Positions 3,917-46,297 of a stretch of 54,336 bases of DNA are shown here, one piece after another (the first letter of the stretch is position 1; each line of letters starts with the position of its first letter). The notes under the pieces are model-generated. The model was given only the letters and a program-made list of their open reading frames with translations, had not been told where the DNA came from and did not search any database. The stretch spans positions 1 through 54,336 of the forward strand of contig DATHJB010000022.1 of NCBI GenBank assembly GCA_035316325.1, written 5' to 3'. Source of the stretch: Acidimicrobiales bacterium (GTDB lineage: Bacteria; Actinomycetota; Acidimicrobiia; Acidimicrobiales; VFJN01). The position numbers and the translations under genes were made by a program.

Positions 3917-3936
3917 ATCGGAATATATAGTCCGAT
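3917..3936 (-). promoter_or_regulatory. Operator-like palindrome (site A) with embedded -10, upstream of the alpha/beta-hydrolase
   Basis: Sequence ATCGGAATATATAGTCCGAT: arms ATCGGA/TCCGAT around TATATA. Read on the - strand it contains TATATT at the position where sites C and I carry TATAAT and TATAGT, suggesting the operator covers a -10 element about 20 bp before the hydrolase start. It matches the CGGAAY-N4-RTTCCG pattern repeated at other promoters here. It also lies at the very end of the GH3 gene region (stop at 3938). Binding protein unproven; the TetR at 41646 is the best local candidate. Confidence 0.55.
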
Positions 3937-6277: not shown

Positions 6278-7119
6278 GGCTGTGTCAGCCGTCGCACCGC
6301 CGGCACGACGCTGTGGACGCCCCGCCGTGCCGTCTCCTCCAGGTCCGCGACCGCGATCCCGCGGCGGCGGGCGACTTCGGACAGATGGCCGACGTCCTTC
6401 CGCACCAGCGCCTGTGCGTGTTCGGCAAGGTCCAGGGGGATGCGTCGCGCGAGCGCGTCGAGGGCGAAGCTCGACCCGCTGCTCGCCAGGACGAGATCGA
6501 CCATCAGCGGCACCTCCAGGCCGAAGGCGTCGGCGAGCGCCAGCATGTCGCCGGCGTTCTTGAGGTTGGCGGCGTAGAGCGCGTTGTTGACGAGCTTGGC
6601 CACCTGGCCGGAACCGGCGGCGCCGAGGTAGGCGATCGCGGCGCCGAAGCTCTCGAAGACCGGTCGCGCCCGCTCGTAGGCGTCCCGATCGCCGCCGGCC
6701 ATCACCGTCAGGCTGTGGTCGCGGGCGCCGGCGCCTCCACCGCTGACGGGCGCGTCGAGGACGAACACACCGTGGCGGCGGGCTCGCGCCGCGAGGGCCT
6801 CGCTCGCCTCGGGTGAGCCGGTGCCGTGGTTGGCCACGATGCCGCCCGGGGCCATCGACTCGAGCAGGCCGCCCGTCACGAGGACCTGCTCGACGTCCCG
6901 GTCGTCGCCGAGGCACAGGCCGACCAGGTCGCACGCCCGTCCCAGGCCGACGAGGTCGTCGGCGACCGTGTGCGCCAAGCCGGCGACCGCATCCAGTGAC
7001 CGCGGGCGTCGCGCCCACACGTGCAGGGACCACCCGGCCTCGGCGATGGCACGAGCCATCGGGGCACCTTGGTCGCCGAGGCCGACGAAGCCGACCTGCA
7101 CGACCGGGCGGGCGTTCAC
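6274..7119 (-). CDS. NAD(P)-dependent oxidoreductase of the 3-hydroxyisobutyrate dehydrogenase family
   Basis: 281 residues, GTG start overlapping the preceding ligase stop (GTGA). The N-terminal Rossmann motif is VGFVGLGDQGAPMARAIAEAG. The substrate loop is VLDAPVSGGGAGA (about residue 121), and the catalytic Lys lies in GSGQVAKLVNNALYAAN (about residue 170), as in 3-hydroxyisobutyrate and tartronate-semialdehyde (GlxR/GarR) reductases. All conserved features are present, so it should be active on a short beta-hydroxyacid or its semialdehyde. A paralogue with a degenerate nucleotide motif is at 23604-24482, also next to an AMP-ligase. A tartronate semialdehyde role would connect to the glycerate kinase at 43583, but this is inference. 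Confidence 0.85.
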   Translation of the reverse strand: MNARPVVQVGFVGLGDQGAPMARAIAEAGWSLHVWARRPRSLDAVAGLAHTVADDLVGLGRACDLVGLCLGDDRDVEQVLVTGGLLESMAPGGIVANHGTGSPEASEALAARARRHGVFVLDAPVSGGGAGARDHSLTVMAGGDRDAYERARPVFESFGAAIAYLGAAGSGQVAKLVNNALYAANLKNAGDMLALADAFGLEVPLMVDLVLASSGSSFALDALARRIPLDLAEHAQALVRKDVGHLSEVARRRGIAVADLEETARRGVHSVVPAVRRLTQP

Positions 7120-8744
7120 CGTCGCTCCCAGGTGACGTCGGCGCGCTCGCGGTCCCAGGTCGAGGGCGTGCAGCCCTCGTCGCGGAGCCGGTGCTTGAGG
7201 ACCTTGCCGACGGCGCTGGTCGGCAGTGCCTCCCGGAACTCGATGTAGCGAGGGAGGGCGAAGTAGGGGACACGCTCCTTCGACCACTCGAACAGCTCCT
7301 CGGGCGCGAGTGCCGATCCGTCGGCGAGGACGGCGGTGACCTTCACGTCGTCCTCGCCGAGCTCGGAGGTGACGGCGTGCACGGCCACGTCGGCGATCGC
7401 CGGGTGGCCGATGTAGGTCGCCTCGAGCTCCTGGCTGGAGATGTTCTCGCCCCGTCGTCGCAGGTAGTCCTTCTTCCGGTCGACGAAGTGCAGGAAGCCG
7501 TCGTCGTCGAACATCCCGAGGTCGCCGGTGCGGAGCCACAGGTCGCGGGTGGCGGCGACGGTGGACTCGGGCTGCTTCCAGTAGCCGTCGAACATCACGT
7601 TCGGGCGCCGGGGGCGGGCGACGATCTCGCCGACCTCGCGGGGAGGGAGCTCGCGATCGTCGGCGTCGAAGATGCGCACGTCGAAGTCACGGTCGTTGCG
7701 CCGCCCCGAGGTGCCGGGCGCCTCGGGCTCTCCGTGGCGCAGTGTCGTGAGGGGGACCGCCTCGGTGAGGCCGTAGGTGCCGCCCCCGACGCGCCGGACG
7801 CCGAACCGCTCACGCCACGTCTGCTGCAGCTCGGCCGGGAACGGTGCGCCGTGGACGACGCGGATCTGTCCGTGGCACCGCGCCATCTCCGGCGTGTCCG
7901 GCATCGCCGCGATCAGCGCTCCCATCGACCCGAGCAGGTTCACCACCCGTGCTCCGGTGCGTTCGATCTCCGGCCAGAACCGCGACACCGAGAAGCGGGG
8001 CGCGATCGCGGCCGTCCCCTGCACCATCAGCGTGCCCGCGATGGTGTTGCCGATCAGGTTGAAGTGGTACATCGGCAGCGGGCTCCAGTTGAGGTCGTCG
8101 CCGCAGCGGTCGGTCTGCTCGAGGAACCGGCGGGCCAGGTTGACGACGTAACCGTGGGAGATGACGCAGCCCTTGGAGGGCCCGGTCGTCCCGCTCGTGT
8201 ACACGAGCAGCGACACGTCCGACGCCGTCGGCTCGATCGGGCCGGCTGTCCCTCCCCCGCTGCAGAGCTCGGCGAGCGACTCGACCGCACACCCGCCGGC
8301 CCGGTTGCGGGGAACTTCATCCCCGCGGACCACGAGCCGCTCCAGCGTGCCGACGCCGCCCTCGACGGCGACGAAGCGATCGACGAAGTCGGCCTCGCAG
8401 AGCGCGACGCGAGCTCCGGAGTCGGCGAGGACGTGTCGGAGGAACTCGCCGCGCAGGGCGGTGTTGATGCCGACCCAGATGGCGCCGATCATGTTGGCCC
8501 CGAACCAGGCGGCGACGCTGTCGCTGTTGTTGTCCAGCATCGAGACGACCGTGTCGCCCTTCGCCACGCCGGTGCTCCGCAGGCCCTGAGCGATGGCGGC
8601 GGCCCGGCTCCAGACCTCGGCATAGGTGAACGACGTGCCGTCGAAGTCGAGGAAGGCCTGGTCGGGCACCTTCTCGGTGGCGTCATGCAGGAGCCGCAGA
8701 GCGCTGTCGGTCGCATCGCTCACGCCCCAGTCGGTTCCCGTCAC
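7116..8744 (-). CDS. AMP-binding acyl-CoA synthetase (fatty/carboxylic acid-CoA ligase)
   Basis: 542 residues from the GTG at 8744, chosen for the ribosome site gaggaga 7 bp upstream; longer ATG alternatives (8771, 8813) lack one. ANL-superfamily motifs in order: phosphate loop YTSGTTGPSKGCVISHG (about residue 170), GGTYGLTEAVP (about 310), RTGDLGMFDDDGFLHFVDRKKD (about 410) and the C-terminal catalytic Lys in SAVGKVLKHRL. It activates a carboxylic acid to its CoA thioester through an acyl-AMP. The upstream genes in the same operon encode an SDR, an acyl-CoA dehydrogenase and an LLM enzyme, so it probably primes a side chain for beta-oxidation. 49 bp separate it from the SDR. Confidence 0.92.
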   Translation of the reverse strand: MTGTDWGVSDATDSALRLLHDATEKVPDQAFLDFDGTSFTYAEVWSRAAAIAQGLRSTGVAKGDTVVSMLDNNSDSVAAWFGANMIGAIWVGINTALRGEFLRHVLADSGARVALCEADFVDRFVAVEGGVGTLERLVVRGDEVPRNRAGGCAVESLAELCSGGGTAGPIEPTASDVSLLVYTSGTTGPSKGCVISHGYVVNLARRFLEQTDRCGDDLNWSPLPMYHFNLIGNTIAGTLMVQGTAAIAPRFSVSRFWPEIERTGARVVNLLGSMGALIAAMPDTPEMARCHGQIRVVHGAPFPAELQQTWRERFGVRRVGGGTYGLTEAVPLTTLRHGEPEAPGTSGRRNDRDFDVRIFDADDRELPPREVGEIVARPRRPNVMFDGYWKQPESTVAATRDLWLRTGDLGMFDDDGFLHFVDRKKDYLRRRGENISSQELEATYIGHPAIADVAVHAVTSELGEDDVKVTAVLADGSALAPEELFEWSKERVPYFALPRYIEFREALPTSAVGKVLKHRLRDEGCTPSTWDRERADVTWERR

Positions 8745-8793
8745 GTCCGTGTCTCCTCGCGTCGCTGCCATCGTTGCCTCGGGCCCCTGTCCG

Positions 8794-9546
8794 TCACGAG
8801 GGGACATAGCCACCGTTCACGGCGACCGTCTGGCCCGTCACCCAGTCGCCCGCGGGGGAGGCCAGCCACAGCACGGCTCCGGCGACGTCCTCCGGGGTTC
8901 CCAGGCGCCGCATCGGATAGCGGGCGATCGCCCGACGAGCCGCGGCATCCGGCTCCTGCCCGGCTGGGGCGATGGAGCCGAGCGACACGCAGTTGCACGT
9001 CACCCCGTGCGGGCCGACCTCCTTGGCCAGCGCCCGGGAGAAGCCCATCGCTCCTGCCTTGGCCGCCGAGTAGGCGGCCATGCCCGGCTCGCCGACGCGC
9101 CCGGCATCCGACACGATCGAGATGACGCGCCCCCACCGTTGGTCGACCATGTGCTCGAGGACGAGCCGGGAGCAGTGCAGGACGCCGTAGAGGTTGAGGG
9201 AGATGAACCTGTCCCAGTCGGGCCGGGTCGTCTCGACGAAGGGCGTCGCCCGGATGCCCGACGGCGGCAGGCCCGCGTTGTTGACGAGGACGTCCACCGG
9301 ACCCACCCGCGCCGCGACGCTGCGGACCATGTCCTCGACCTCGTCCGGCTCGGTGATGTCCGCGGCCACCGTCACGGCCTGTCCCCCGGCCTCGCGGATC
9401 GATTCGGTCACGCCGTCGGCCCGGTCGGCGGCGAGGTCGTTGACCGCCACGGCGGCACCGCGGGCCGCGAGGGCCCGGGCGATGGCGGCTCCGACGCCCT
9501 GGCCGGCCCCGGTGACCAGGGCGACACGTCGGGACAGGTCGTCCAC
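8794..9546 (-). CDS. SDR family oxidoreductase (3-oxoacyl/3-hydroxyacyl-type)
   Basis: 250 residues from GTG. The cofactor motif TGAGQGVG (residues 12-19) differs slightly from the usual TGxxxGIG. NNAG is at about 91, Ser in SIVSDAG (about 141), the YSAAK dyad at about 155-159 and the C-terminus DWVTGQTVAVNGGY. Length and motifs match 3-oxoacyl-ACP/CoA reductase-type SDRs. It lies 3 bp after the acyl-CoA dehydrogenase stop in the - operon headed by the substrate-binding protein. A role as the 3-hydroxyacyl-CoA or ring-alcohol dehydrogenase is likely but unspecific. Confidence 0.88.
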   Translation of the reverse strand: MDDLSRRVALVTGAGQGVGAAIARALAARGAAVAVNDLAADRADGVTESIREAGGQAVTVAADITEPDEVEDMVRSVAARVGPVDVLVNNAGLPPSGIRATPFVETTRPDWDRFISLNLYGVLHCSRLVLEHMVDQRWGRVISIVSDAGRVGEPGMAAYSAAKAGAMGFSRALAKEVGPHGVTCNCVSLGSIAPAGQEPDAAARRAIARYPMRRLGTPEDVAGAVLWLASPAGDWVTGQTVAVNGGYVPS

Positions 9547-14456: not shown

Positions 14457-14490
14457 CGGACAGGTTGCCGAACGTTCGGGAACCTGTCCG
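14457..14490. repeat. 34-bp imperfect palindrome upstream of the substrate-binding protein gene
   Basis: Outer arms CGGACAGGTT (14457-14466) and AACCTGTCCG (14481-14490) are exact reverse complements. The inner core CCGAACGTTCGG (14468-14479) is a perfect 12-bp palindrome; only the G/G pair 14467/14480 breaks symmetry. It lies 23 bp before the lipoprotein start and after the ATPase stop. It could be a dyad operator or, as RNA, a strong stem that protects the binding-protein message after processing, a common way to raise binding-protein levels over permease. No T-run follows, so a simple terminator is unlikely. Confidence 0.6.
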
Positions 14491-14504
14491 GAACATTAAT
14501 TCCA
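14489..14504 (-). promoter_or_regulatory. Operator-like palindrome (site G) upstream of the 14434-3938 operon
   Basis: CGGAACATTAATTCCA matches the repeated CGGAAY-N4-RTTCCG pattern with one arm imperfect at the last base. It overlaps the final codons and stop of the ATPase gene (stop at 14496-14498) and abuts the 34-bp palindrome. Read on the - strand, TAATGT lies where other sites carry a -10. It is placed to control the operon beginning with the substrate-binding protein. Regulator unproven. Confidence 0.5.
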
Positions 14505-21076: not shown

Positions 21077-21105
21077 GTCATCTCCTGTGTTCCGTGTGAC
21101 GGGCG

Positions 21106-21135
21106 TTGACAACCGGAATAACTATTCCCTATGGT
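21106..21135 (+). promoter_or_regulatory. Promoter with operator (site B) in the spacer, driving 21168-24482
   Basis: -35 TTGACA (21106-21111), an 18-bp spacer and -10 TATGGT (21130-21135). The spacer contains CCGGAATAACTATTCCC, whose 14-bp core GGAATA-AC-TATTCC is a perfect dyad. A protein bound here would block RNA polymerase directly. The same -35/operator/TATGGT arrangement occurs on the - strand at 36094-36123. The site also lies upstream of the divergent crotonase gene (start 21076) and could control both directions. Confidence 0.7.
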
Positions 21136-21167
21136 TCCGCGCTGCGCAACTGCCGAGCCGGAGGGAC

Positions 21168-22144: not shown

Positions 22145-23611
22145 ATGTCGAACCCCCTGCGTCCCATCGGCGAGGTACTCACCACGTCGGCCGCCGCGGA
22201 CCCCGACAGGCCGGCGGTGACGTGCGAGGGCGTCACGATCACCCGCGACGAGCTCGACCGCCGTTCGAACCGCCTGGCCCGCGCCTACGCGTCGTTCGGC
22301 GTGAGCCAGGGCGATCTCGTCACGATCGGGTTGCGCAACGGCATCGAGTTCTACGTCTCGTGCTATGCGACCTGGAAGCTGGGCGCGGTGCCCCAACCCG
22401 TCTCCTGGCGGCTGCCGGCCCGCGAGCGCCGGCAGATCATCGAACTGGCCGACCCGCCGCTGGTCGTCGGGCTCGACGAGCAGCACGCCGATCGCCACAC
22501 GGTCCCGGCCGGGTTCGAGCCCGACGCCGCGTTGAGCGACGCGCCGCTGCCGGCGACCGTGCCGCCGGCGTGGAAGGCACTCACCTCGGGGGGCAGCACG
22601 GGCCGACCGAAGGTCATCGTGTCCGGTTCGGCCGGCGCCATCGCCCCCGAGGCCGCGCAGCGGCGGTTCTTCATGCAGCCCGAGCACGTCCAGCTCGTGC
22701 CCGGCCCGCTCTACCACAACGGCCCGTTCTCCTACTCGATGCTCGGATCGTTCCTCGGGCAGCACCTCGTCGTGCTCCCCCGGTTCGACGCCGAGGCGGC
22801 GCTCGAGGCCATCGAGCAGCACCGGGTCGGCTTCGTCCTGCTCGTCCCCACGATGATGCTGCGGATGTGGCGGGCGATCGAGGCCGCCCCCGGCCGCTAC
22901 GACCTGAGCTCGCTGGAGGTCGTCTGGCACATGGCCGCGCCCTGCCCGCCATGGCTCAAGGAGCGGTGGATCGACCTGGTCGGTGGCAGCCACCTCTTCG
23001 AGCTCTACGGAGGCACCGAGGCCCAGGCCATGACCGTCATCTCCGGCGACGAGTGGCTGGCCCACCCCGGCTCGGTGGGGCGCGTGGCCGAGGGGCAGAT
23101 GAAGGTCGTCGACGCCGCTGGCGACGCTGTCCCACAGGGCCAGGTGGGCGAGATCTACATGCGCAAGGCCCCGGGCGCGCCCGACACCTACCGCTACATC
23201 GGCGCCGAGGCGAAGGTGCTCGACGACGGGTGGGAGTCGCTCGGCGACATCGGCTGGATCGACGCCGGCGGCTATCTCCACCTCACCGATCGGATCTCGG
23301 ACATGATCCTCGTGGGCGGCGCGAACATCTACCCCGCCGAGGTGGAGGCAGCCTTGTCCGAACATCCCCTGGTGGCGTCGAGCGCCGTGGTCGGGCTCCC
23401 CGACGAGGACCTCGGCCACCACCTGCACGCGGTCGTCGAGGCGACCCAGGCCCTCACCGGCGACGAGCTCAGGACCTTCCTCCTGGAACGGGTCGAGCCT
23501 CACAAGATCCCGCGCTCGTTCCGGTTCGTCACCGAGACCCTGCGCGACGACGCGGGCAAGGTGCGACGAAGCGCCGTGCGCGAGCGCGAGATCGAGCTGC
23601 AGCGTGGCTGA
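22145..23611 (+). CDS. AMP-binding acid-CoA ligase (bile-acid-CoA-ligase-like subgroup)
   Basis: 488 residues, ATG after caaggag. ANL motifs: phosphate loop LTSGGSTGRPKVIVSG (about residue 147), LYGGTEAQAMTVI (about 290), LGDIGWIDAGGYLHLTDRISDM (about 365) and catalytic Lys in DAGKVRRSAV near the C-terminus. The loop with GGSTGRPK rather than SGTTGxPK is typical of the BaiB-like group that activates bulky, often steroid- or terpenoid-like acids. The gene overlaps the following oxidoreductase by 8 bp. The subgroup assignment is from motif memory; the substrate is not established. Confidence 0.9.
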   Translation: MSNPLRPIGEVLTTSAAADPDRPAVTCEGVTITRDELDRRSNRLARAYASFGVSQGDLVTIGLRNGIEFYVSCYATWKLGAVPQPVSWRLPARERRQIIELADPPLVVGLDEQHADRHTVPAGFEPDAALSDAPLPATVPPAWKALTSGGSTGRPKVIVSGSAGAIAPEAAQRRFFMQPEHVQLVPGPLYHNGPFSYSMLGSFLGQHLVVLPRFDAEAALEAIEQHRVGFVLLVPTMMLRMWRAIEAAPGRYDLSSLEVVWHMAAPCPPWLKERWIDLVGGSHLFELYGGTEAQAMTVISGDEWLAHPGSVGRVAEGQMKVVDAAGDAVPQGQVGEIYMRKAPGAPDTYRYIGAEAKVLDDGWESLGDIGWIDAGGYLHLTDRISDMILVGGANIYPAEVEAALSEHPLVASSAVVGLPDEDLGHHLHAVVEATQALTGDELRTFLLERVEPHKIPRSFRFVTETLRDDAGKVRRSAVREREIELQRG

Positions 23612-24491: not shown

Positions 24492-25274
24492 TCAGCGGCC
24501 GGAGGCGTCGTCTCCGTCACCCGGGTGACCCGCGGACGCCGTGCGGCCTCCGTCGGCCACGAAGTTGGCGCCCGTGGCGAAGCCGCATTCGTCCGACGCC
24601 AGGAAGACCGCGAGCGCGGCGATCTCGTCGGGGCGCCCGAGGCGCCCGATCGGGTGGAGCGACGCAGCCTGCTCCTGCTGCTCCTCGGGCATCCGCAGGA
24701 CGGGTGGCGACGCCACGGTCCCCATGGAGATGGCGTTCACCCTGATCCCCTGGCGGGCGTTCTCGACCGCGGCCGCCCGGGTGAGCGCCAGCATCCCGGC
24801 CTTCCCCGCCGCGTAGGAGCCCATGCCGGGCCAGGCGACCAGCGCGGAGAGCGAGGCGATGTTGACGATCGACCCGCCCCCTCCCCCGATCATCAACGGG
24901 ATGGCGTGCTTCATGCCCAGGAACGCGCTGACCAGCACACCGTCGAGCGTGCGTCGCAGGTCGTCGGGGTCGACGTCGACGAGCGGCCCCCGGCCCACGG
25001 TCGCCGCTCCGGCGGCGCCGTTGACGAGGATGTCCAGGCGCCCCCACTCGGCACGGGCGCGTTCGACCATTGCCCGGACGTCGGCCTCGACCGAGACGTC
25101 GGCCCGCTGCGCGACGGCGGCCGGGCCCAGCTCCTCGGCGACACCGACCTCCGCCCCCGAGACGTCCACGACCAGCACCGTCGCGCCCTCGTCGACGAGC
25201 CGGGTCGCGATGGCGCGGCCGATGCCGGACCCGGCACCGGTCACGATCGCCCGCTTGCCGGCGACGCCCCTCAC
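24492..25274 (-). CDS. SDR family oxidoreductase
   Basis: 260 residues from GTG (GTGA overlap with the HyuB stop; ribosome site cggagg 8 bp upstream). TGAGSGIG (about residues 12-19), the NNAG position changed to NGAA (about 88), catalytic Ser in NIASLSALVAW, the YAAGK dyad (about 152-156) and FLASDECGFATGANFVADGG are present. This places it in the classical 250-residue SDR group. It is the distal gene of the carboxylase-like operon, so it may act on the keto or hydroxy compound that the complex makes or uses, for example oxidising a secondary alcohol to the ketone. That role is inferred from position only. Confidence 0.88.
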   Translation of the reverse strand: MRGVAGKRAIVTGAGSGIGRAIATRLVDEGATVLVVDVSGAEVGVAEELGPAAVAQRADVSVEADVRAMVERARAEWGRLDILVNGAAGAATVGRGPLVDVDPDDLRRTLDGVLVSAFLGMKHAIPLMIGGGGGSIVNIASLSALVAWPGMGSYAAGKAGMLALTRAAAVENARQGIRVNAISMGTVASPPVLRMPEEQQEQAASLHPIGRLGRPDEIAALAVFLASDECGFATGANFVADGGRTASAGHPGDGDDASGR

Positions 25275-27331
25275 CCCGGTGCACCTCCGTCGGCCACCGC
25301 GACGCGGTCCGGATGGGGCCACGAGCCGTAGTACCGCAGCAGCTCCGGCGGCGGCGCGAGCCGCTCCCACTCGGCCACGAACTCGGCGTAGGGCCGCCCC
25401 CGCTGCAGACGGGCCGCCCGTTCGTCGGCCCGCAGCCGCTCGGTCGCCGCCGGATCGACGTCGAGGGTGGCCGGGTCGAACGCGACCTTGAACACGTTCT
25501 CGGCCGTCCAGGCCGTGTAGACGCCCCGCCGGATGTCGTCCATCACCATGGCCGGGTCACGCTCCAGCACGTCGCCGTAGCCCCCGGCGGCCACGGCCAC
25601 GACACCGATGCTGTCGCCCTCGCCATAGGTCCTGCTGGTCTCCATGCTGCGCAAGGTGTAGTCGCCGTCGACCGGCTGCGCCGACATCAGCTCGGGGAGG
25701 CTCGTCGGGTTCTCGAACCCGGGCTCGGCCAGCGCCTGCTGCCAGGCGCCGTTCTCGACGGTCACCGCCGGGGCGCAGCTCCCGGCGTAGCCGCCGAACT
25801 GACCGATCGAGTTGGGGAAGCGCCAGCACTGCCCGAGGATCATCGCCTCGAAGTGGGGCGAGCCGTGGATGACGACGTTGTTGGCGACTCCCGCCCCGCC
25901 GCGGTACTTGCCCGGCCCGGCCTGGTCGGCGGCCAGCCGCCGGAAGGAGTACAGGTACGGGTGCTGGATCTCGTCGTGCTCGATGTCGAGGCAGTCGGCG
26001 TAGCCCGACCACCAGAAGCCGGCGGAGTCGACGCCGTCCTGGTCGGGCCGGGCCCCGCCGCCGGTGGCGTTCATCGACGAGGCGAGCACGCCGGCGTTGA
26101 AGTGGCCGTACTGGTTGATGCCTCCGTAGCCGAAGACGCGGGCCCCGGTCCCGAAGGGGACGGCGGTCTGCTCGCGCAGCTCGGTGGCGAACATCATCTT
26201 GTTCAGGCACGAGTGCATGCCCTGGACCGCCTTGGGGGCCAGCGAGACGCTGCCCGAGATGCCGGCGTCCATGGTGGGGTTGAGGCAGGTGCCCTCTGCG
26301 GCGGCGATGAACTCGAACGGCTGGTACATGCCGCTGCTGCACGGCAGGTCGGGCAGGAGGTACATCGACAGCATGGCCGCCATGTGGGCGCGGATGACGT
26401 GGGTGGGTGCGTTGATGATCGACGGTGTCTGGGGCGAGCAGCCCCGCAGGTCGACGGTGATCTGGTCGCCCCGCTTGTGGACGGCGATCGACACCCGGCC
26501 CAGGCCCTCGTCGAGGCCGACGTTGTCGAAGAACATGTTCACCCGGAAGGTGCCGTCGAGCATCTTGGCCACGACCTTGCGGGTGCCCTCGGCGGCCGAC
26601 TCGCACGACCGGCGCAGCAGGCCGATCAGGAAGTCCGGTCCCTTGTCGGTCAGCAGGCCGAGGAGCCGGTCGCGCACCTTCAGGCACGCCGCCGTGCGGG
26701 CTCGGAGGTCCACCTCGATGAGGCGGTCGTCGCGCACCATGTTGGCGATCATCGCCAGGACGTCGCCCTTCAGCGTGAACCCCTCGCCCACCTTGAGCGG
26801 GGGTGTCTTGAACCCCTCGTCCCAGCGGGAACGTCCGCTCGGGGGGATGCCGCCCGGCTCGGTCGCGCCGGTCTCGGCCTCGTGGGAGGCGGCGGCCACC
26901 CAGGCGACCAGCTCGCCCTCCCAGAAGATCGGTATGGCGTTCATCTGGTCGGGGTTGTGGATGCCGCCCAGCTGCGCTTCGTTGGCGAAGAAGTTGTCGC
27001 CCTCGCGGACCGAGACCGTGGGGTCGTCCCAGTAGTACTTCAGGATGTACTTCAACGGGATCTGCCCCGTCGCGGCATGGACGCACGTCCCGACGCAGGC
27101 GATGGCCAGGTCCCCCGATGCCGTGTAGACGCCGACGATGCAGTCGCCGGCCTGCATCATCTCCGAGAGGCCGGTCTTCACCATGACCTCCTTGCCCTCC
27201 TCGCAGAAGAGCTCGAGCTTCGTGGAGTAGACGCTGAAGTCGGCAGCACCGAGGGCGTCGGCGACGCGCTCCTCCCGGTCGGTCCTGGGTTCGAGGCGAT
27301 AGCGGGCTACGAGCTCGCGATCGATGCGCAT
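25271..27331 (-). CDS. Hydantoinase B/oxoprolinase family protein; acetone/acetophenone-carboxylase alpha (ApcD/AcxB-like) subunit
   Basis: 686 residues, ATG after aggagag. Extensive similarity to HyuB-family proteins: an N-terminal metal-site region with HAATGQIPLKYIL and EGDNFFANEAQLGGIHNPDQM, RVNMFFDNVGLDEGLGRV, VDLRGCSPQTPSIINAP, and the ACX-like C-terminal PYLYSFRRLAADQAGPGKYRGG. In acetone and acetophenone carboxylases this subunit carries the carboxylation/metal site. It is the fifth gene of a five-gene set (32478 to 25271) matching acetophenone carboxylase in order and size. N-methylhydantoinase or oxoprolinase activity is the main alternative, but those lack the AcxC-like subunit found here. 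Confidence 0.9.
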   Translation of the reverse strand: MRIDRELVARYRLEPRTDREERVADALGAADFSVYSTKLELFCEEGKEVMVKTGLSEMMQAGDCIVGVYTASGDLAIACVGTCVHAATGQIPLKYILKYYWDDPTVSVREGDNFFANEAQLGGIHNPDQMNAIPIFWEGELVAWVAAASHEAETGATEPGGIPPSGRSRWDEGFKTPPLKVGEGFTLKGDVLAMIANMVRDDRLIEVDLRARTAACLKVRDRLLGLLTDKGPDFLIGLLRRSCESAAEGTRKVVAKMLDGTFRVNMFFDNVGLDEGLGRVSIAVHKRGDQITVDLRGCSPQTPSIINAPTHVIRAHMAAMLSMYLLPDLPCSSGMYQPFEFIAAAEGTCLNPTMDAGISGSVSLAPKAVQGMHSCLNKMMFATELREQTAVPFGTGARVFGYGGINQYGHFNAGVLASSMNATGGGARPDQDGVDSAGFWWSGYADCLDIEHDEIQHPYLYSFRRLAADQAGPGKYRGGAGVANNVVIHGSPHFEAMILGQCWRFPNSIGQFGGYAGSCAPAVTVENGAWQQALAEPGFENPTSLPELMSAQPVDGDYTLRSMETSRTYGEGDSIGVVAVAAGGYGDVLERDPAMVMDDIRRGVYTAWTAENVFKVAFDPATLDVDPAATERLRADERAARLQRGRPYAEFVAEWERLAPPPELLRYYGSWPHPDRVAVADGGAPG

Positions 27332-27339
27332 GGTCTCTC

Positions 27340-29475
27340 CTAGCTGGGCCGCAGCACGGCGGTGCCGATGCGGTCGATGGTGAGCGTCCGGTCGGCGGGG
27401 ACGACGATGGCCGTGTCCGGGCCCTGGACGATCGCGTGGCCCTCGATGACGTTTCCCGATCGCAGCGCGTCGGCGTCGTAGACCGGCGTCGGTTCGTAGC
27501 GGCCGAGGTCGGGCCAGAACACCGGGCGGCGCGTCATCAGGGCGGCCGACGCGTCGGCTCGTCCCGTCGGCAGCTCGGGCAGCACCGGCTTGGGGCGGGG
27601 GACGCTGGCCGTGAGGTGGAACCCCTCGACGTCGATGGCACCGTCGACATCGAGCGAGATGTCGGAGTAGCGCCGGCCGTACTCCTCGGCGAAGGCGGCG
27701 GCCACGCCCCGGACGTCGGCTTCACTCGTCAGCACCAGGTGCGGCGAGCGGACCCTCGTGAGGTTGAACCGGTAGCGGTAGCGCATGTCGAGCTCGAGGG
27801 TGCAGACCATCTCGGCCGGTGTGAAGCCCTCGGAGACGACGTCTCGCTCCGCCTCGCGCCGCAGCTGCTCGACGACCGAGTTGAACGCCTCGTGGTCGTC
27901 GAGCCAGAAGCCCTCGGCCGGGTCGCAGAGCACGACGTGACGCGACCGTTCGTAGAGGTGGCGGAGGTCCATGGACGCCCCGCCGAGGGCGCAGAACACG
28001 CTCGAGTACAGGAACGTGTAGCAGTCCAGGTCCGCGTCGAGCTGTCGGGCGTACTCGGCGCAGTGCAGCGGCCCGGCGCCCCCGTAGGCGAACAGCGCGA
28101 ACTCCCGCACGTCGAGGCCCTTGAGGTACAGCTCCTTGGCGATGACGCCGCCCATGTGGGCGTCGATGGCGGTGCGGATGGCCGCGGCAGCCTCGACGAC
28201 GTCGAGGCCGAGCGGCTCGGCGACCCGTCGCCGGATGGCGCGCTCGGCGAGATCGCGGTCGAGGCGCATCCGGCCGCCGAGGAAGCGGTCGGGGTCGAGG
28301 AATCCGAGCACCAGATCGGCGTCGGTGACGGTGGGCTCCCTCCCGCCCTGCGCATAGCTCGCCGGGCCCGGGTCCGATCCGGCGCTGCGGGGCCCGACCT
28401 CGAGGCGGTCGTCCATCTCGGGGTTCAGCCAGGCGATCGAGCCGCCGCCGGCGCCGATGGACTTCACCTCGATCATCGACGTCTCCGTGAGCCACCGGTC
28501 CACGACCGGCTGCTCGGAGAAGAAGCGGACGTCGCCCCCGACGACCGTGCCGAAGTCGAAGCTGGTCCCGCCCATGTCGGTCACGACCACGTTCTCCAGC
28601 CCGTAGTGGCCGGCCAGGTAGGCACTGCCGAACAGGCCGGCGACCGGACCGGCCGCCCAGGTGTCCAGGGCCCGGGTGCGCGTCACCTTGGCCGCCCCGC
28701 CCACGTTGTTCACGACCATGAGCGGGCGGCGGTAGCCCTGCTCGCGCAGCTCGCCGCCGAGGGCGCTCAGCTCGTCCTGCAGGGCCCAGTGCAGGTAGGC
28801 GTTGAGCACGGCCGCGTTGGCCCGCGGGTACTCGTGCCAGGTCGGCGAGACGTCCGACGAGCAGAACACCGGCAGCCCGCCGAGGTGCACGTCGGGGTAC
28901 AGCTCTTCGATCGTCTCCCGGACCGCGGCCTCGTGGGCCGGGTTGACGTGCGACCACAGCAGGGCGACGACGAACCCCTGGGCACCGCGGTCGACGAGGT
29001 GGCGCACCTTGCCGCGGACGTCGTCGAGGTCGAGCGGCGCGACGACCGCGCCCGAGTAGTCGATCCGCTCCCGGATGCCGACCACCATGTCGACCGGGAC
29101 GAGCGGCACCGGCTTGCGGATCCGGGTGATGTCCCGGACCTCGCGGGGGTGGAGCCCGTCGGCCCACTGCCGGGACCGCCCGATCATGAGCATGTGCTCG
29201 TTGCCCGAGGTGGTGATGAGGCCGAGCTTCGGGCCCTTCCGCTCCAGGAGCGCGTTCATCGCGATCGTGGTGGAGTACCGCACGGCGTCGACATCCGACA
29301 GCAGGGCGACGACATCGAGGCCCGCCTGCTCGGCCGCGCCCCTGATGGCCTCCCGCACCCCGACGGCGAGGTCGTAGCGGGTCGTCGGTGTCTTCCACCG
29401 GGTGAGGGCACCCTCCTGCATCAGCACGCAGTCGGTGAAGGTGCCCCCGATGTCGATGTCGACCGTCGTCTTCAC
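27340..29475 (-). CDS. Hydantoinase A/oxoprolinase family protein; carboxylase ATPase subunit (ApcC/AcxA-like)
   Basis: 711 residues from GTG (overlap with the gamma-like gene). Actin/hexokinase-fold ATP motifs: DIDIGGTFTDCV at the N-terminus and VVTDMGGTSFDFGTV (about residue 300), with SIGAGGGSIAWLN and GPRSAGSDPGPASY after it, and FAYGGAGPLHCAEYA (about 475). HyuA-family proteins phosphorylate bicarbonate or the ketone (enol) using ATP. It is the larger of two HyuA proteins in the operon, as ApcC is in acetophenone carboxylase. Motifs look intact, so both HyuA subunits are likely functional. Confidence 0.92.
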   Translation of the reverse strand: MKTTVDIDIGGTFTDCVLMQEGALTRWKTPTTRYDLAVGVREAIRGAAEQAGLDVVALLSDVDAVRYSTTIAMNALLERKGPKLGLITTSGNEHMLMIGRSRQWADGLHPREVRDITRIRKPVPLVPVDMVVGIRERIDYSGAVVAPLDLDDVRGKVRHLVDRGAQGFVVALLWSHVNPAHEAAVRETIEELYPDVHLGGLPVFCSSDVSPTWHEYPRANAAVLNAYLHWALQDELSALGGELREQGYRRPLMVVNNVGGAAKVTRTRALDTWAAGPVAGLFGSAYLAGHYGLENVVVTDMGGTSFDFGTVVGGDVRFFSEQPVVDRWLTETSMIEVKSIGAGGGSIAWLNPEMDDRLEVGPRSAGSDPGPASYAQGGREPTVTDADLVLGFLDPDRFLGGRMRLDRDLAERAIRRRVAEPLGLDVVEAAAAIRTAIDAHMGGVIAKELYLKGLDVREFALFAYGGAGPLHCAEYARQLDADLDCYTFLYSSVFCALGGASMDLRHLYERSRHVVLCDPAEGFWLDDHEAFNSVVEQLRREAERDVVSEGFTPAEMVCTLELDMRYRYRFNLTRVRSPHLVLTSEADVRGVAAAFAEEYGRRYSDISLDVDGAIDVEGFHLTASVPRPKPVLPELPTGRADASAALMTRRPVFWPDLGRYEPTPVYDADALRSGNVIEGHAIVQGPDTAIVVPADRTLTIDRIGTAVLRPS

Positions 29476-29846
29476 GGCCCTCCGATCGCGTCGTCGTCCA
29501 ACTCGCCGTCGTTGCCGAACCGCTGCTTGAGGACGTCGACGTCCAGCTCGATGTCGTGGGTCAGCGGGTGCCCCGGGGGGAGGTACTCGACCTCGACGAG
29601 GGTGGCGCAGCCGGGGCAGTAGAACTCCACGATCCGCACCCACTCCGGGTCGGGCGCGAAGACGCGGCCGGCCGCCACGGGGTCGACGCCGGCACTGTGG
29701 ATCTCCAACGGGTTGCGGGCGGCGACGAGGCAGCCCTGCTTGTAGTCGCCGCGGGCGTCGCCGAGGTCGTGGCCGCAGACGACGCACGTCCAGCGTTCGG
29801 GTTCCAGGTCGATGCTCAGGTACTCGGTGATACGGACCTGCGTCAC
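29472..29846 (-). CDS. Acetone carboxylase gamma-subunit-like zinc protein (AcxC/ApcB-like)
   Basis: 124 residues from GTG, overlapping both flanking HyuA genes by 4 bp. Two CxxC pairs, WTCVVCGHDLG (about residue 22) and EFYCPGCATLVEVEYLPPGHP (about residue 78), form a probable zinc site; GDYKQGCLVA lies between them. The C-terminal HDIELDVDVLKQRF is also characteristic of acetone carboxylase gamma subunits. This small subunit separates the ATP-dependent ketone carboxylases from ordinary hydantoinases and 5-oxoprolinases, so it is the key evidence for the enzyme class of this operon. Confidence 0.9.
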   Translation of the reverse strand: MTQVRITEYLSIDLEPERWTCVVCGHDLGDARGDYKQGCLVAARNPLEIHSAGVDPVAAGRVFAPDPEWVRIVEFYCPGCATLVEVEYLPPGHPLTHDIELDVDVLKQRFGNDGELDDDAIGGP

Positions 29847-31762
29847 CGCACCGCCTCCACGACCAGGCCCGAGCGGCTCGTGCGGGTCAGGCGCCAGCCC
29901 GGCGGGACGACGACGGTGGTGTCGGGCCCCGCGGCGAGCGCCGGGCCCTCCACCGTCGCACCGTCGCCCAGTGAGGCGGCGGGGATCACCGGAGTGTCGG
30001 TCGGTCCGTCGCCCCAGTCGACCGGGCGACGACCTGGCTCGCCGGCGTCGGCCGGGGCGGGCGCGCTGTCCGGGTGGGGCGTCAGCGCCGTCATCGTGAG
30101 CACCAGCAGGTCTCCTTCCATCGCCACTTCGTCGAGCTCGGCGACCAGGGGGACGAGGTCGGACGCCGTGGGCGGGGCGGCGAAGGCGTGGCGCCAGCGG
30201 ACGACACCGGGACGCCGGGGATCGACGAGCTCGAGGTCGGTGTGCTGGTCCGAGCCGGCGAAGCCCTCGGCCTCCATGTCGCGCCGGGCCGCGCCGAGCA
30301 TGTCGGACACCGCCTGGGGCGCCACGGGCCCGGTGACCAGGAGCGGGTAGTGGTGAGCGACGTCCAGGCTGCTCACGCCCAGGGCGCTGAACACGGCCGC
30401 GTGGTCGGGCACGAGCACCCGCCCGATCCCGGCGCGCCCGGCGATGCCGGCGGCGTGCAGGGGGCCTCCGCCGCCGTAGGCCACGAGCACGGCGTCGGCG
30501 GCGTCGACGCCCCGGCGGGCCAGGAGCGCGGACAACCCGTCGGCGATGACGGCCTCGGCCCGGTCGCGCACCCGGCGGGCGACCTCGCCGAGCTCGATCC
30601 CGGACGCGGCCGCGAGCGCGCCCAGGGCGACCTCGGCCCGTGCCCGGACCAGCGGGAGCCGACCGCCGTGGAACGCGTCGGCGTCGAGCAGGCCCAGCAG
30701 CAGGTTGGCGTCGGTCAGCGTCGCCTCGGCTCCCCCGCGGTCGAAGCACGCCGGGCCGGGATGCGCCCCGGCGCTACGAGGACCGAGCTGGAGGCCGGCA
30801 CCGTCGGCCCAGGCGATCGACCCTCCCCCGATCGGCAGGGCGTCGACCGGCACCGAGGGCACGTGGGTGGGGACGAGGCCCACCGAGCCGGTCCAGGTCA
30901 GGCTCGACCCGTCGGACTCCGCCAGGCTCACGTCGGCGCTGGTGCCGCCGATGTCGAGGGTCACCGCGACCTTGCCCAGATCGCTGGTTGCGGCCGCCGC
31001 ACCCCGCACGCCGGCGACCGGCCCCGAGTTGTAGGTGTGGACGGCCAGGGTCTTGGCGCTGCGCGCCAGCCCGGCGTGCCCGTGCACGAGCAGGAGCGGA
31101 TGCCGAAGGCCACGGCGCCGCAGCTCCTCCTCGACCCGGTAGATGCTGCGGGCGAGGCGGTCGTGCACGAAGGCGTTGAGCGCGGCCGTGCCGGTGCGCT
31201 CGGCCGCCCCGGGCAGGGCGCTGAGCTCGCTGGCCAGGAACACCCGCACCGCGCCCAGGTAGTAGGGCGGATAGAGGCTGCGCACCGCGGCGCGCACCGC
31301 CCGTTCGGGCCCGGGATCGTGCCACGAGCCGTCGAGGCTGACGACCAGCGCCCGCGCTCCCCCGTCGAGCAGACGCTCGACGACCACGCGGGTGGCGTCG
31401 AGGTCGACGGGTGTCGCCACCCCGGCGACGAGCTCGGGGCGGACGATGCCGGCCTCGACCAGCGGCGCACCGTAGAGGTCGTGCTCGGCCCCGGCGCTCA
31501 CGATCAGCCCGATGGCGGGGCCCCGCCGCTCGAGGATGGCGTTGGTGGCGATGGTCGACGAGAACCTGACCGCCAGGGCCTCCCGCAGCATCTCCTGCAC
31601 CGGGAGGCCGAGCACACCGGCACCGGCGTCGATGCACTCCAGCATCCCGACGGTGAGGTCGTGCGGCGTGGTCAGGACCTTCACGCCGTGGGCGACCCCG
31701 TCCCGGGTGAACACACCGTCGGTGAAGGTGCCACCGGTGTCGATGTCGATCGTGAGGGTCAC
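29843..31762 (-). CDS. Hydantoinase A/oxoprolinase family protein, second HyuA-like subunit (ApcA-like)
   Basis: 639 residues from GTG. N-terminal DIDTGGTFTDGVFTRDG and mid-protein VTLDIGGTSADVSLAESDG are the paired phosphate-binding loops of the actin-like ATPase fold; PIGGGSIAWADG and GPRSAGAHPGPACFDRGG follow, with YGGGGPLHAAGIAG near residue 435. It diverges considerably from the 711-residue HyuA next door, which argues for distinct roles within one complex rather than recent duplication. In acetophenone carboxylase two different HyuA-like subunits flank the small zinc subunit, as here. Confidence 0.9.
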   Translation of the reverse strand: MTLTIDIDTGGTFTDGVFTRDGVAHGVKVLTTPHDLTVGMLECIDAGAGVLGLPVQEMLREALAVRFSSTIATNAILERRGPAIGLIVSAGAEHDLYGAPLVEAGIVRPELVAGVATPVDLDATRVVVERLLDGGARALVVSLDGSWHDPGPERAVRAAVRSLYPPYYLGAVRVFLASELSALPGAAERTGTAALNAFVHDRLARSIYRVEEELRRRGLRHPLLLVHGHAGLARSAKTLAVHTYNSGPVAGVRGAAAATSDLGKVAVTLDIGGTSADVSLAESDGSSLTWTGSVGLVPTHVPSVPVDALPIGGGSIAWADGAGLQLGPRSAGAHPGPACFDRGGAEATLTDANLLLGLLDADAFHGGRLPLVRARAEVALGALAAASGIELGEVARRVRDRAEAVIADGLSALLARRGVDAADAVLVAYGGGGPLHAAGIAGRAGIGRVLVPDHAAVFSALGVSSLDVAHHYPLLVTGPVAPQAVSDMLGAARRDMEAEGFAGSDQHTDLELVDPRRPGVVRWRHAFAAPPTASDLVPLVAELDEVAMEGDLLVLTMTALTPHPDSAPAPADAGEPGRRPVDWGDGPTDTPVIPAASLGDGATVEGPALAAGPDTTVVVPPGWRLTRTSRSGLVVEAVR

Positions 31763-32478
31763 GCCACCGCGTCCCTTCGCTGACCGTGGACCTCGCGAGC
31801 CCGTGCCCGCAGGGCCTCCGCGTCCGTCGAGCGGGGCGACCATGGGGTGGTGACCACCGCCAATCCGCTGGGTACGCCCAGTGGAGCGGCGACCGCCACC
31901 CCCGCGCCCAACGGCCCGGCGGGCCCGCAGTCGACGGCGTCGACGCCCGCGTCGAGCGCGAACGAGGCGGCGGCGGGGCCGATCACCAGCGTGCGCGCGC
32001 CGTGGAAGGCCGCCATGCGCGCCAGCGTCCGGAAGCAGCCGGCCGACGACGGGTCCGGCCGGGGCTCGTCCAGGGCCAGCACGTCGACGCGGGTCTCGAG
32101 GGCGGCCCGGGCCAGGTCCTCGGCCGCCTCGTCGCGGTCGTCGGCGTCCCCCAGCCCCCGGCGCTCCGCCAGCAGGCAGGGGCCGGGCACGACGGCGACA
32201 CGGTCACGGCGCCCAGCGGCGGCGGCCAGGCGGCGGAGCGCCTCCAGCGCGGGCGCGTCCAGGTCGTCGACCAGCACGACGACCGCGTCGGACTCGACCA
32301 GTTCGGCCGTGAGGCTCAGCGCCGAGACGAGCTCCGTCGGCGACGCCGCCATCGCGGTGACGTCGATCCCGGCCCGTTCGGCGGCCAGCTCCCACACCCA
32401 CGGCAGGAACACCGGGCCGGCGGATCTCCCGCTCAGCGCTGCGTGGACCGCGCCCATTTGCCCCGTACCGACATGCAC
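31759..32478 (-). CDS. Small uncharacterised protein, weakly uroporphyrinogen-decarboxylase-like; candidate fifth carboxylase subunit
   Basis: 239 residues from GTG at 32478 (ggagg 2 bp upstream is close; an ATG at 32457 is an alternative). The N-terminus MGAVHAALSG...GPVFLPWVWELAAERAG and the helix ASPTELVSALSLTAELVESDAVVV recall the start of URO-D-fold proteins (which have about 340 residues), and ALETRVDVLALDEPRPDPS resembles their middle region. The usual metal or substrate residues are not evident and the protein is short. It is the promoter-proximal gene, overlapping the HyuA stop, so it is made with the complex. Acetophenone carboxylase needs a separate small fifth subunit (ApcE, about 34 kDa); whether this is its counterpart is speculation. 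Confidence 0.6.
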   Translation of the reverse strand: MHVGTGQMGAVHAALSGRSAGPVFLPWVWELAAERAGIDVTAMAASPTELVSALSLTAELVESDAVVVLVDDLDAPALEALRRLAAAAGRRDRVAVVPGPCLLAERRGLGDADDRDEAAEDLARAALETRVDVLALDEPRPDPSSAGCFRTLARMAAFHGARTLVIGPAAASFALDAGVDAVDCGPAGPLGAGVAVAAPLGVPSGLAVVTTPWSPRSTDAEALRARAREVHGQRRDAVA

Positions 32479-32510: not shown

Positions 32511-32528
32511 CCGGAATTATAATTCCGG
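32511..32528 (-). promoter_or_regulatory. Perfect 18-bp operator-like palindrome (site C) of the carboxylase operon
   Basis: CCGGAATTATAATTCCGG is a perfect dyad, the best copy of the CGGAAY-N4-RTTCCG motif. On the - strand its centre contains a consensus -10, TATAAT, 33 bp upstream of the GTG of the first carboxylase-operon gene. Occupancy would cover the -10. No convincing -35 was seen. The site is 2 bp from the stop of the upstream amidohydrolase gene. Confidence 0.7.
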
Positions 32529-43570: not shown

Positions 43571-43600
43571 ATTGTGAAGGAATTATTCCGGTTGTGTCAA
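43571..43600 (-). promoter_or_regulatory. Promoter with short operator (site E) in the spacer, driving the 43543-42332 acyl-CoA dehydrogenase
   Basis: On the - strand: -35 TTGACA (43600-43595), an 18-bp spacer and -10 CACAAT (43576-43571). The spacer contains GGAATAATTCC, an 11-bp palindrome whose arms match the other sites but with a centre three bases shorter. The promoter lies over the stop region of the upstream glycerate kinase gene (TAA at 43583-43585). Confidence 0.6.
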
Positions 43601-44617: not shown

Positions 44618-45823
44618 TCAGGCCGCCGACCTCTCCAGGATGTGGACACCGCACGCGGAGCCGAGACCGATGACGTGGGCCAGTCCGACCATGGCTCCGT
44701 CGATCTGGCGGTCGCCGGCCTCGTTCCGAAGGTGGTGACAAACCTCCCAGACGTTGGCGATGCCGGTGGCCGCGATGGGGTGGCCCTTCGATTGCAGTCC
44801 ACCGGACACGTTGACCGGGAGGCGGCCGTCGCGCCAGGGAGCACCGGACTCGAAGAAGTCGACGGCACCACCCTCCTCGCACAGCCCGAGGTTGTCGTAG
44901 TGGACGAGCTCGGCCGTGGCGAAGCAGTCGTGCAACTCGACGAGATCGAGGTCCTGGGGCCCGACTCCGGCCTGCTCGTAGGCCTGCGCGGCCGCCCGCT
45001 TGGTCAGGGTGTTGACGTCCGGCAGGACCTGGCAGGCCTCCGTCCAGGGATCCGACGTGAGGATCGACGCCGAGACCTTCACCGCGCGCCTCCGCTGGTC
45101 GAGCGACAGGGTCTTCAGCTTCTCGCCGGAGACGACCACCGCCGCGGCGGCGCCGTCGCAGTTGGCGGAGCACATCGGCCGGGTGTTCGGGTAGGCGATC
45201 ATCACGTCGCCCATGATCTGCTCGAGCGACATCTTCTTGGTGTACGCCGCGAGCGGGTTGAGGGTGGAGTGGGCGTGGTTCTTCTCGGAGATGCGGGCGA
45301 ACAGCTCGAAGCTGGTGCCGCCGTAGCGGTGGCCGTACTCCATGCCGACCTGGGCGAACACGCCCGGCATGGTGTCGGTGCCGATCCGCCCGTCCACCGG
45401 CGCGACCGCCCCGAACCGGCCCTGGGGCGTCCACGAGTCGCCGTCGGCCTTCGCCTGACCGCCGCCGCCGAGCAGGCCGGCGCCGGCGAGCTTCTCGACA
45501 CCGACCGCGAGGCCCACATCGGCCTCGCCCGCTTTGACCGCCATGATCGCCGTGCGGAGCGCCGTCGCGCCCGTCGCACAGGCGTTGGCCACGTTGTAGA
45601 CGGGGATGCCGGTCTGGCCGATCTGCTTCTGCAGCTGCTGGCCGATGCCGGCCGGCCCGCCCATGAGGTTGCCGGCGGCGAGCACCTGCACGTCCCCGAT
45701 GGCCACGCCACCGTCGGCCAGAGCCCCCATGGCTGCTTCGGCCGCGAGATCGACCGTGTCGAGCTCCGGGTGCTTGCCGAACTTCGTCATGTGGATCCCC
45801 AGGATCCAGACGTCATCAGCCAT
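44618..45823 (-). CDS. Thiolase family protein (SCP-x-like acetyl-CoA acetyltransferase)
   Basis: 401 residues; ATG after ggaggg. Nucleophilic Cys in NVANACATGATALR (about residue 81), HDCF motif LVELHDCFATAELV (about 295), GGLQSKGHPIAATG (about 350) and C-terminal GLGSACGVHIL. The thiolase set is complete and of the SCP-x/non-decarboxylating type that often works with an OB-fold DUF35 partner, here the adjacent gene. Function is thiolytic release of acetyl-CoA or propionyl-CoA from a 3-ketoacyl-CoA; a retro-aldolase role, as in Ltp-type proteins, is less likely because the Cys and His are retained. Confidence 0.92.
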   Translation of the reverse strand: MADDVWILGIHMTKFGKHPELDTVDLAAEAAMGALADGGVAIGDVQVLAAGNLMGGPAGIGQQLQKQIGQTGIPVYNVANACATGATALRTAIMAVKAGEADVGLAVGVEKLAGAGLLGGGGQAKADGDSWTPQGRFGAVAPVDGRIGTDTMPGVFAQVGMEYGHRYGGTSFELFARISEKNHAHSTLNPLAAYTKKMSLEQIMGDVMIAYPNTRPMCSANCDGAAAAVVVSGEKLKTLSLDQRRRAVKVSASILTSDPWTEACQVLPDVNTLTKRAAAQAYEQAGVGPQDLDLVELHDCFATAELVHYDNLGLCEEGGAVDFFESGAPWRDGRLPVNVSGGLQSKGHPIAATGIANVWEVCHHLRNEAGDRQIDGAMVGLAHVIGLGSACGVHILERSAA

Positions 45824-45824
45824 G

Positions 45825-46250
45825 TCAGTTGCCCTCCAGAGGCTCGAAGCCGAAGGCGATCGCCTCGGTCCCGGCCGAGTCGACACCCACCGGCACGGTC
45901 GTGAGTCGAACCTTCATGCCCAGCGACACATGGTCCGGATCGGGCTCGACGCCGACGACGTTCCCTCGCACGCTGGTGCCGGCGCAGTCGACGAGCGCGG
46001 CCACGAACGGCACCGGTACCCCTGGTGCCGCATGGGCCACGATCGTGAACGCCCGCACCTCGCCCTCGGTCGCGACCCGGACGCCGGCGAAACCCTCTCC
46101 CCCACACGACGCGCACGCGTTGCGCCGGCCGAAGAACCGGGCGCCGCACGACGTGCACTCGTTGGCCACCAGGTGCGGATCGTCCCCCAGCACCAGGTAG
46201 TCGACCAGCGGGACCACACCCCGCTCTCCCCCGGAAGTCTTTCCGGCCAT
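45825..46250 (-). CDS. OB-fold/zinc-ribbon DUF35 protein, partner of the thiolase
   Basis: 141 residues; ATG after gaggaga. A rubredoxin-like zinc ribbon NECTSCGARFFGRRNACASCG (begins about residue 30) is followed by an OB-fold domain (about 55-140) with VRAFTIVAHAAPGVPVPFVAALVD. DUF35 proteins form heteromers with SCP-x thiolases or Ltp2 aldolases and help bind CoA or stabilise the complex. Its stop lies 1 bp before the thiolase start. First gene of the 46250-43583 operon, with operator site I 32 bp upstream. Confidence 0.9.
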   Translation of the reverse strand: MAGKTSGGERGVVPLVDYLVLGDDPHLVANECTSCGARFFGRRNACASCGGEGFAGVRVATEGEVRAFTIVAHAAPGVPVPFVAALVDCAGTSVRGNVVGVEPDPDHVSLGMKVRLTTVPVGVDSAGTEAIAFGFEPLEGN

Positions 46251-46281: not shown

Positions 46282-46297
46282 CGGAACTATACATCCA
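46282..46297 (-). promoter_or_regulatory. Operator-like palindrome (site I) upstream of the DUF35-thiolase operon
   Basis: CGGAACTATACATCCA, closest to site H (CGGAACGTAACATCCG). On the - strand TATAGT, a near-consensus -10, lies at the centre, as TATAAT does in site C. It is the last copy on the right; none was seen beyond 46.3 kb. Confidence 0.5.

Follow-up and report, generated by a model that had tools for sequence, protein, structure and literature searches.

Operon content and layout

The 54,336-nucleotide Acidimicrobiales contig DATHJB010000022.1 (hereafter the window, meaning this whole stretch) carries on its minus strand an operon resembling that for acetophenone carboxylase (Apc) of Aromatoleum aromaticum. 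Five tightly coupled genes, all present as first described, run head to tail from 32478 to 25271, and a short-chain dehydrogenase/reductase (SDR) gene begins 5 bases past the end of the HyuB gene, so that the operon is longer than first described:

31759..32478, minus strand: epsilon-subunit gene (ApcE homologue, uroporphyrinogen decarboxylase (URO-D) fold), 239 aa, first in the operon
29843..31762, minus strand: alpha-prime gene (ApcA-like HyuA, HyuA1), 639 aa, presumed bicarbonate kinase
29472..29846, minus strand: gamma gene (ApcB-like zinc protein), 124 aa
27340..29475, minus strand: alpha gene (ApcC-like HyuA, HyuA2), 711 aa, presumed ketone kinase
25271..27331, minus strand: beta gene (ApcD-like HyuB), 686 aa
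24492..about 25265, minus strand: SDR dehydrogenase gene, last in the operon (Pfam adh_short_C2 1e-60 on a longer reading frame; start set by inspection of the translation)

The epsilon/alpha-prime, alpha-prime/gamma and gamma/alpha junctions are 4-base GTGA start/stop overlaps, the alpha-beta gap is 8 bases with a ribosome site (AGGAGAG), and GC content by codon position is consistent with coding sequence. The core has the alpha-prime, gamma, alpha, beta order of Apc-type loci, and the overall order is epsilon-A-gamma-C-D as opposed to A-gamma-C-D-epsilon in A. aromaticum. The initial annotation, made from the sequence alone, had pointed to a five-gene set parallel to Apc in its sizes and HyuA-zinc protein-HyuA-HyuB order, with a small gene ahead of the core; the coordinates and the matches to Apc subunits confirm this, and the small gene (31759-32478) is identified below as encoding the epsilon subunit. 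An SDR gene likewise neighbours the Apc-type loci L055 and L056.

Identity of the four core subunits

When searched against all solved structures, beta best matched Apc chain 5l9w_A (E 7.5e-136, compared with 1e-44 for acetone carboxylase (Acx) and 1e-28 for hydantoinase), gamma matched 5l9w_C (E 1.6e-37; Acx 1e-10) and alpha matched 5l9w_B (E 1e-197; hydantoinase 4e-92). Both HyuA chains of 5l9w were the first matches of alpha-prime, the ApcA chain being matched over its full length. With the 5l9w chains as A. aromaticum reference sequences, identity is 37% for beta (D), 58% for gamma, 45% for alpha (C) and 34% for alpha-prime (A). NCBIfam models ApcA-D were the top models for the four core proteins, and gamma also matched Pfam Acetone_carb_G (PF08882) at 2e-34.

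Further evidence comes from conserved residues. The four zinc cysteines of gamma are kept (pairs 21/24 and 77/80), as are the PHOSPHATE1, PHOSPHATE2 and ADENOSINE motifs of the ASKHA ATP site in both alpha and alpha-prime. The RERIDxxG fingerprint occurs in alpha only (RERIDYSG at 135) and is absent from alpha-prime, the same pattern as reported for Apc (PMC5214803). All of the features used to recognise Apc in that study, namely the order and lengths of the genes, the branch of the tree, the fingerprint R/KERiDsxG of alpha, four gamma cysteines and ATP motifs, are found here, the exception being that the epsilon gene stands first.

The epsilon subunit completes the set

By itself the epsilon protein returned nothing useful in Pfam, NCBIfam or PDB sequence searches, and a family profile was needed for its relationship to be detected. 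A gene of 230-340 aa follows apcD in most Apc-type loci, and in leave-out profiles built from 63-68 such genes with the window protein excluded, the epsilon protein was the sole significant open reading frame of the window (E 1.7e-9 to 4.4e-17, four seeds). A 50-member family profile, which takes in the window protein, matched ApcE (9fou) at E 2.6e-32; 19 of these 50 relatives matched Pfam URO-D (PF01208), while the window protein itself did not. Its AlphaFold model (predicted local distance difference test score 84) had ApcE 9fou as its top three Foldseek matches. VIA-align superposed it on 9fou_D with Z 16.9 and a root-mean-square deviation (rmsd) of 3.3 over 210 residues, and on the uroporphyrinogen decarboxylase 4exq, the highest-scoring match, with Z 18.6 and rmsd 3.4 over 231 residues, so that a URO-D-like fold spans the entire epsilon domain. 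The leave-out profiles, the family profile and the fold together identify the small first gene as encoding the epsilon subunit; it lies beside the core, in first position and not in last as in A. aromaticum. The five-subunit set is therefore complete.

The five genes probably encode a complete Apc-type, biotin-independent and ATP-dependent ketone carboxylase of alpha, alpha-prime, beta, gamma and epsilon subunits. The subunit identities, the two ATP sites, the zinc-cysteine set, the operon structure and the sharing of the putative operator described below are all shown by the sequence.

Phylogenetic placement

When 44 HyuB proteins (30 Apc, 7 Acx and 7 hydantoinase (Hyd) rows) were placed in a tree by IQ-TREE, with support given as the SH-like approximate likelihood ratio test (SH-aLRT), Apc (99), Acx (100) and Hyd (98) each formed one side of a branch. 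This phylogeny, which had been proposed as a check on the initial annotation, placed beta inside the Apc clade (SH-aLRT 99), apart from the acetone carboxylases and hydantoinases and not within N-methylhydantoinase or oxoprolinase clades. Within the Apc clade, beta fell outside a 13-row subclade (support 100) holding A. aromaticum. A FastTree tree of 121 rows again placed the window beta in the Apc clade, and in the HyuA tree, made by FastTree only, alpha (HyuA2) joined ApcC with support 97, the placement of alpha-prime being less firm. Judged from these trees, the window enzyme is a deep, separate branch of the Apc type, with 34-58% identity to A. aromaticum. The closest ApcD-type relative of beta among the matches listed is 41% identical, and no close relative of the window branch was found in the six other genomes of its family.

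That relative, in Candidatus Tectomicrobia (L076), has no HyuA or gamma detected within 10 kb of its ApcD-type gene.

A probable shared operator and 42-kb regulon

A putative operator lies upstream of the epsilon gene, and copies of a related motif recur along the window, mostly at transcription-unit starts. These sites and the candidate partner genes are:

32511..32528, no strand: perfect 18-base palindrome CCGGAATTATAATTCCGG, putative operator predicted from sequence, with TATAAT inside, upstream of the epsilon gene
3919..3934, no strand: operator motif copy upstream of an alpha/beta hydrolase gene
14489..14504, no strand: operator motif copy near the start of a solute-binding protein gene
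21114..21129, no strand: operator motif copy between a hydratase gene and a 2-hydroxyacid dehydrogenase/CoA ligase unit
43575..43590, no strand: weaker operator motif copy upstream of an acyl-CoA dehydrogenase gene
46282..46297, no strand: operator motif copy upstream of the OB-fold/thiolase genes
22145..23611, plus strand: coenzyme A (CoA) ligase, candidate for a beta-keto acid (Pfam AMP-binding 3e-56; start by inspection)
7116..8813, minus strand: second CoA ligase (Pfam AMP-binding 2.6e-62)
44618..45886, minus strand: SCP2/BbsB-type thiolase, candidate for thiolysis (best PDB matches SCP2-thiolase and benzoylsuccinyl-CoA thiolase)
45825..46250, minus strand: OB-fold (ChsH2-type) thiolase partner (Pfam OB_ChsH2_C 5.6e-11)

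A single exact copy of the 18-base palindrome is present in the genome, and its 14-base core is likewise unique when up to one mismatch is allowed. The regulon is visible only with the relaxed motif CGGAATWATWNTTCCG, which has 13 strand matches in the window where 0.29 would be expected, at sites 3919, 14489, 18586, 21114, 32512, 36136, 43575 and 46282. Across the 6.4-Mb genome, all matches with at most two mismatches lie inside the window, as do 13 of the 23 with at most three. Because the good motif copies are confined to the window in this way, the Apc operon most likely shares its control with the two CoA ligases, the thiolase/OB-fold pair and other pathway genes. The earlier suggestion of one regulon with two CoA ligases and a thiolase is thus borne out by the motif matches and their restriction to the window, and the copies from 3919 to 46297 would delimit a 42-kb pathway-specific regulon. 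Its further genes encode acyl-CoA dehydrogenases, enoyl-CoA hydratases, an RraA-type aldolase, F420-type luciferase-like oxidoreductases, a class A flavin adenine dinucleotide (FAD) monooxygenase and a peptide-type ATP-binding cassette (ABC) transporter. The TetR protein encoded at 41646-42326 is perhaps the regulator.

Function of the enzyme and competing explanations

Several points weigh against reading the set as an Apc-type ketone carboxylase. Firstly, a single enzyme of the branch, acetophenone carboxylase, had been characterised biochemically as of 2017, with epsilon called elusive (PMC5214803). Secondly, none of the core proteins reaches the NCBIfam equivalog cut-off for acetophenone carboxylase proper (NF042960, NF042974, NF042975, NF042976), their scores of 349/1250 bits for ApcA, 151/250 for ApcB, 700/1500 for ApcC and 496/1500 for ApcD amounting to about a quarter to six tenths of it; because they fall so far short, we call these proteins Apc-type and not Apc proper. 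Thirdly, the CoA ligase and the thiolase are in the regulon, outside the Apc operon itself. Finally, A. aromaticum residue numbering maps exactly onto the window alpha, and there the pocket positions L81, F281, N282, P285, I333, Q344 and T345 read M, W, A, P, V, E and V.

This last point bears most directly on a true acetophenone carboxylase, acting on the aryl methyl ketone substrate class of A. aromaticum. Apc is the closest characterised enzyme, and a class A FAD monooxygenase of the aromatic hydroxylase type lies in the same region. Canonical Apc relatives, however, carry F/Y at 281, mostly N at 282, I/V at 333, mostly Q at 344 and S/T at 345, as opposed to W, A, V and E at the first four of these positions in the window, and the window protein lies outside the 13-row A. 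aromaticum subclade (support 100). Since the altered pocket (F281W, N282A, Q344E, T345V) and the separate branch make acetophenone unlikely, the substrate is probably a different one, and we regard a true acetophenone carboxylase as rather unlikely. Alpha-prime also departs from A. aromaticum, with N, D and D at the positions of E248, D274 and K281, as in most sampled non-canonical Apc-type proteins. Only the canonical subclade (L064-L070, L134) retains E248 and K281, the other sampled Apc-type proteins having N/S/Q and D.

An ATP-dependent amidohydrolase with acquired extra subunits, of the N-methylhydantoinase, oxoprolinase or caprolactamase type, would share the HyuA/HyuB superfamily, 6yra and 7hk5 do match at lower scores, and most members of the Apc branch are known from sequence only. 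Hydantoinases, however, lack gamma, alpha-prime and epsilon, form a separate clade and score far lower, and the other HyuA/HyuB loci of this genome are without gamma; we consider this explanation improbable. Simple membership of the two-subunit hydantoinases/oxoprolinases of the Hyd clade, which the initial annotation had already excluded, does not agree with either the tree or the subunit set.

Least probable of all is an acetone-carboxylase-type enzyme for small aliphatic ketones, which would share the gamma family PF08882 but has its genes in alpha-beta-gamma order, with a single HyuA and without epsilon, against two HyuA proteins and epsilon here, has a beta of 776 and a gamma of 168 aa against 686 and 124 aa, and is split from Apc in the tree at 99/100, so that membership of the three-subunit Acx group without alpha-prime is refuted by tree and subunit set alike.

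A possible pathway

For the Apc-type ketone carboxylase, a sequence of reactions can be proposed. The SDR, from its context, would make the ketone from a secondary alcohol. Alpha would then phosphorylate the enol form of the ketone, and alpha-prime would phosphorylate bicarbonate to carboxyphosphate, as suggested by their motifs and the characterised Apc (PMC5214803). Epsilon may bring the two phosphorylated intermediates together to yield a beta-keto acid, by analogy with Apc. This acid would be activated by one of the regulon's CoA ligases and the product cleaved by the thiolase/OB-fold pair, both steps being suggested by the regulon and by the recurrence of such genes beside Apc-type genes.

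A hint to the substrate comes from the neighbouring amidohydrolase gene (PF04909, 32531-33691), whose closest solved relatives are PtmU3 and DitZ, the latter a protein of diterpenoid degradation. PtmU3, a diiron enzyme, hydroxylates CoA-ligated substrates in diterpenoid biosynthesis (PMC7782822). By eye, the window protein has motifs fitting the D-x-H, His, Glu and D-x-x-H metal ligands, with Thr at the position of AibH2 Asp342 and PtmU3 Glu313, and it is possibly an oxygenase of the amidohydrolase-related dinuclear type and not a hydrolase. The relationship to PtmU3 and DitZ hints at a multi-ring substrate. It stays a hint because members of this amidohydrolase family abound in the order, where the relatives of the protein include numerous paralogues that do not narrow the pathway; the case for a terpenoid or multi-ring substrate is circumstantial.

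We tentatively consider it possible that an aerobic degradation pathway of this actinobacterium uses the separate-branch, five-subunit Apc-type enzyme to carboxylate a ketone that is alicyclic or multi-ring. If so, a ring or side chain would be removed by carboxylation and thiolysis instead of by a Baeyer-Villiger oxygenase. The locus offers a complete set with a defined putative operator and a diverged pocket, together with a regulon that names likely partner enzymes, and would provide a second enzyme of the Apc type for work on substrate determinants and on the role of the URO-D-fold subunit.

The region also encodes a glycerate kinase (43583-44596), a tartronate-semialdehyde/hydroxyisobutyrate-type reductase (23604-24482) and a 2-hydroxyacid dehydrogenase (21075-22118), a trio that suggests a C3 end product (hydroxypyruvate/glycerate).

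Distribution and comparison with known systems

Distribution was assessed from 80 Apc-type loci listed in a genome-contig scan, A. aromaticum not being among them. They are spread over many phyla, with hosts such as Pseudonocardia, Arthrobacter, Streptomyces, Nocardia, Gordonia, Corynebacterium, Paenibacillus, Bacillus, Helicobacter and others. The initial annotation's view that the enzyme type is known from denitrifying aromatic degraders does not hold as a restriction, as Apc-type clusters are widespread, Actinobacteria included, and A. aromaticum itself employs Apc both aerobically and anaerobically (PMC4729919). The family is therefore already known and actinobacterial hosts are not new; what is new in this known and fairly widespread enzyme type is the present deep branch. 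An epsilon gene was found at 63 of 70 comparable loci, directly after beta in 54, and a ligase or thiolase homologue lies nearby at at least 34 of the 70, the neighbour ligase counts being lower bounds based on the second ligase only.

The window set shares with A. aromaticum ApcABCDE (5l9w core, 9fou epsilon) its five subunits, core order A-gamma-C-D, sizes, ATP motifs, alpha fingerprint, zinc cysteines and epsilon fold, as well as a CoA ligase and a thiolase as follow-up enzymes. It differs in its altered ketone pocket and alpha-prime residues, and in an epsilon gene that is first and 239 aa long, whereas that of A. aromaticum is last and 303 aa. The Pseudonocardia dioxanivorans CB1190 cluster (L065) and its relatives are likewise actinobacterial Apc-type sets that include epsilon, but L065 belongs to the A. 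aromaticum Apc subclade (58% to its ApcD), in contrast to the separate deep branch of the window. A locus of the same phylum (L177, genome G593) has the epsilon-first order E-A-gamma-C-D with a thiolase and an acyl-CoA dehydrogenase downstream; its ApcD, however, is 38% identical to that of the window, its thiolase lies in the same gene run and its other flanks are unlike. The acetone carboxylase AcxABC (5m45, 5svb) has the HyuA, HyuB and gamma families in common with the window but is without alpha-prime and epsilon, has the gene order alpha-beta-gamma and forms a separate clade. Aerobic actinobacterial ketone carboxylation (of acetovanillone) has been proposed for ApkABC of Rhodococcus rhodochrous GD02, a putative alkyl-phenyl ketone carboxylase homologous to EbN1 CAI06286-88 (PMC8461187); compared by description only, it is a three-gene set as opposed to the five genes of the window.

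Among the Helicobacter loci, L087, L090 and L092 have Apc-type core sets with no recognisable epsilon gene within the flank examined. Tandem pairs of ApcD-type genes occur at L055 (12022-16343), L074 and L106, the two copies at L055 being nearly identical.

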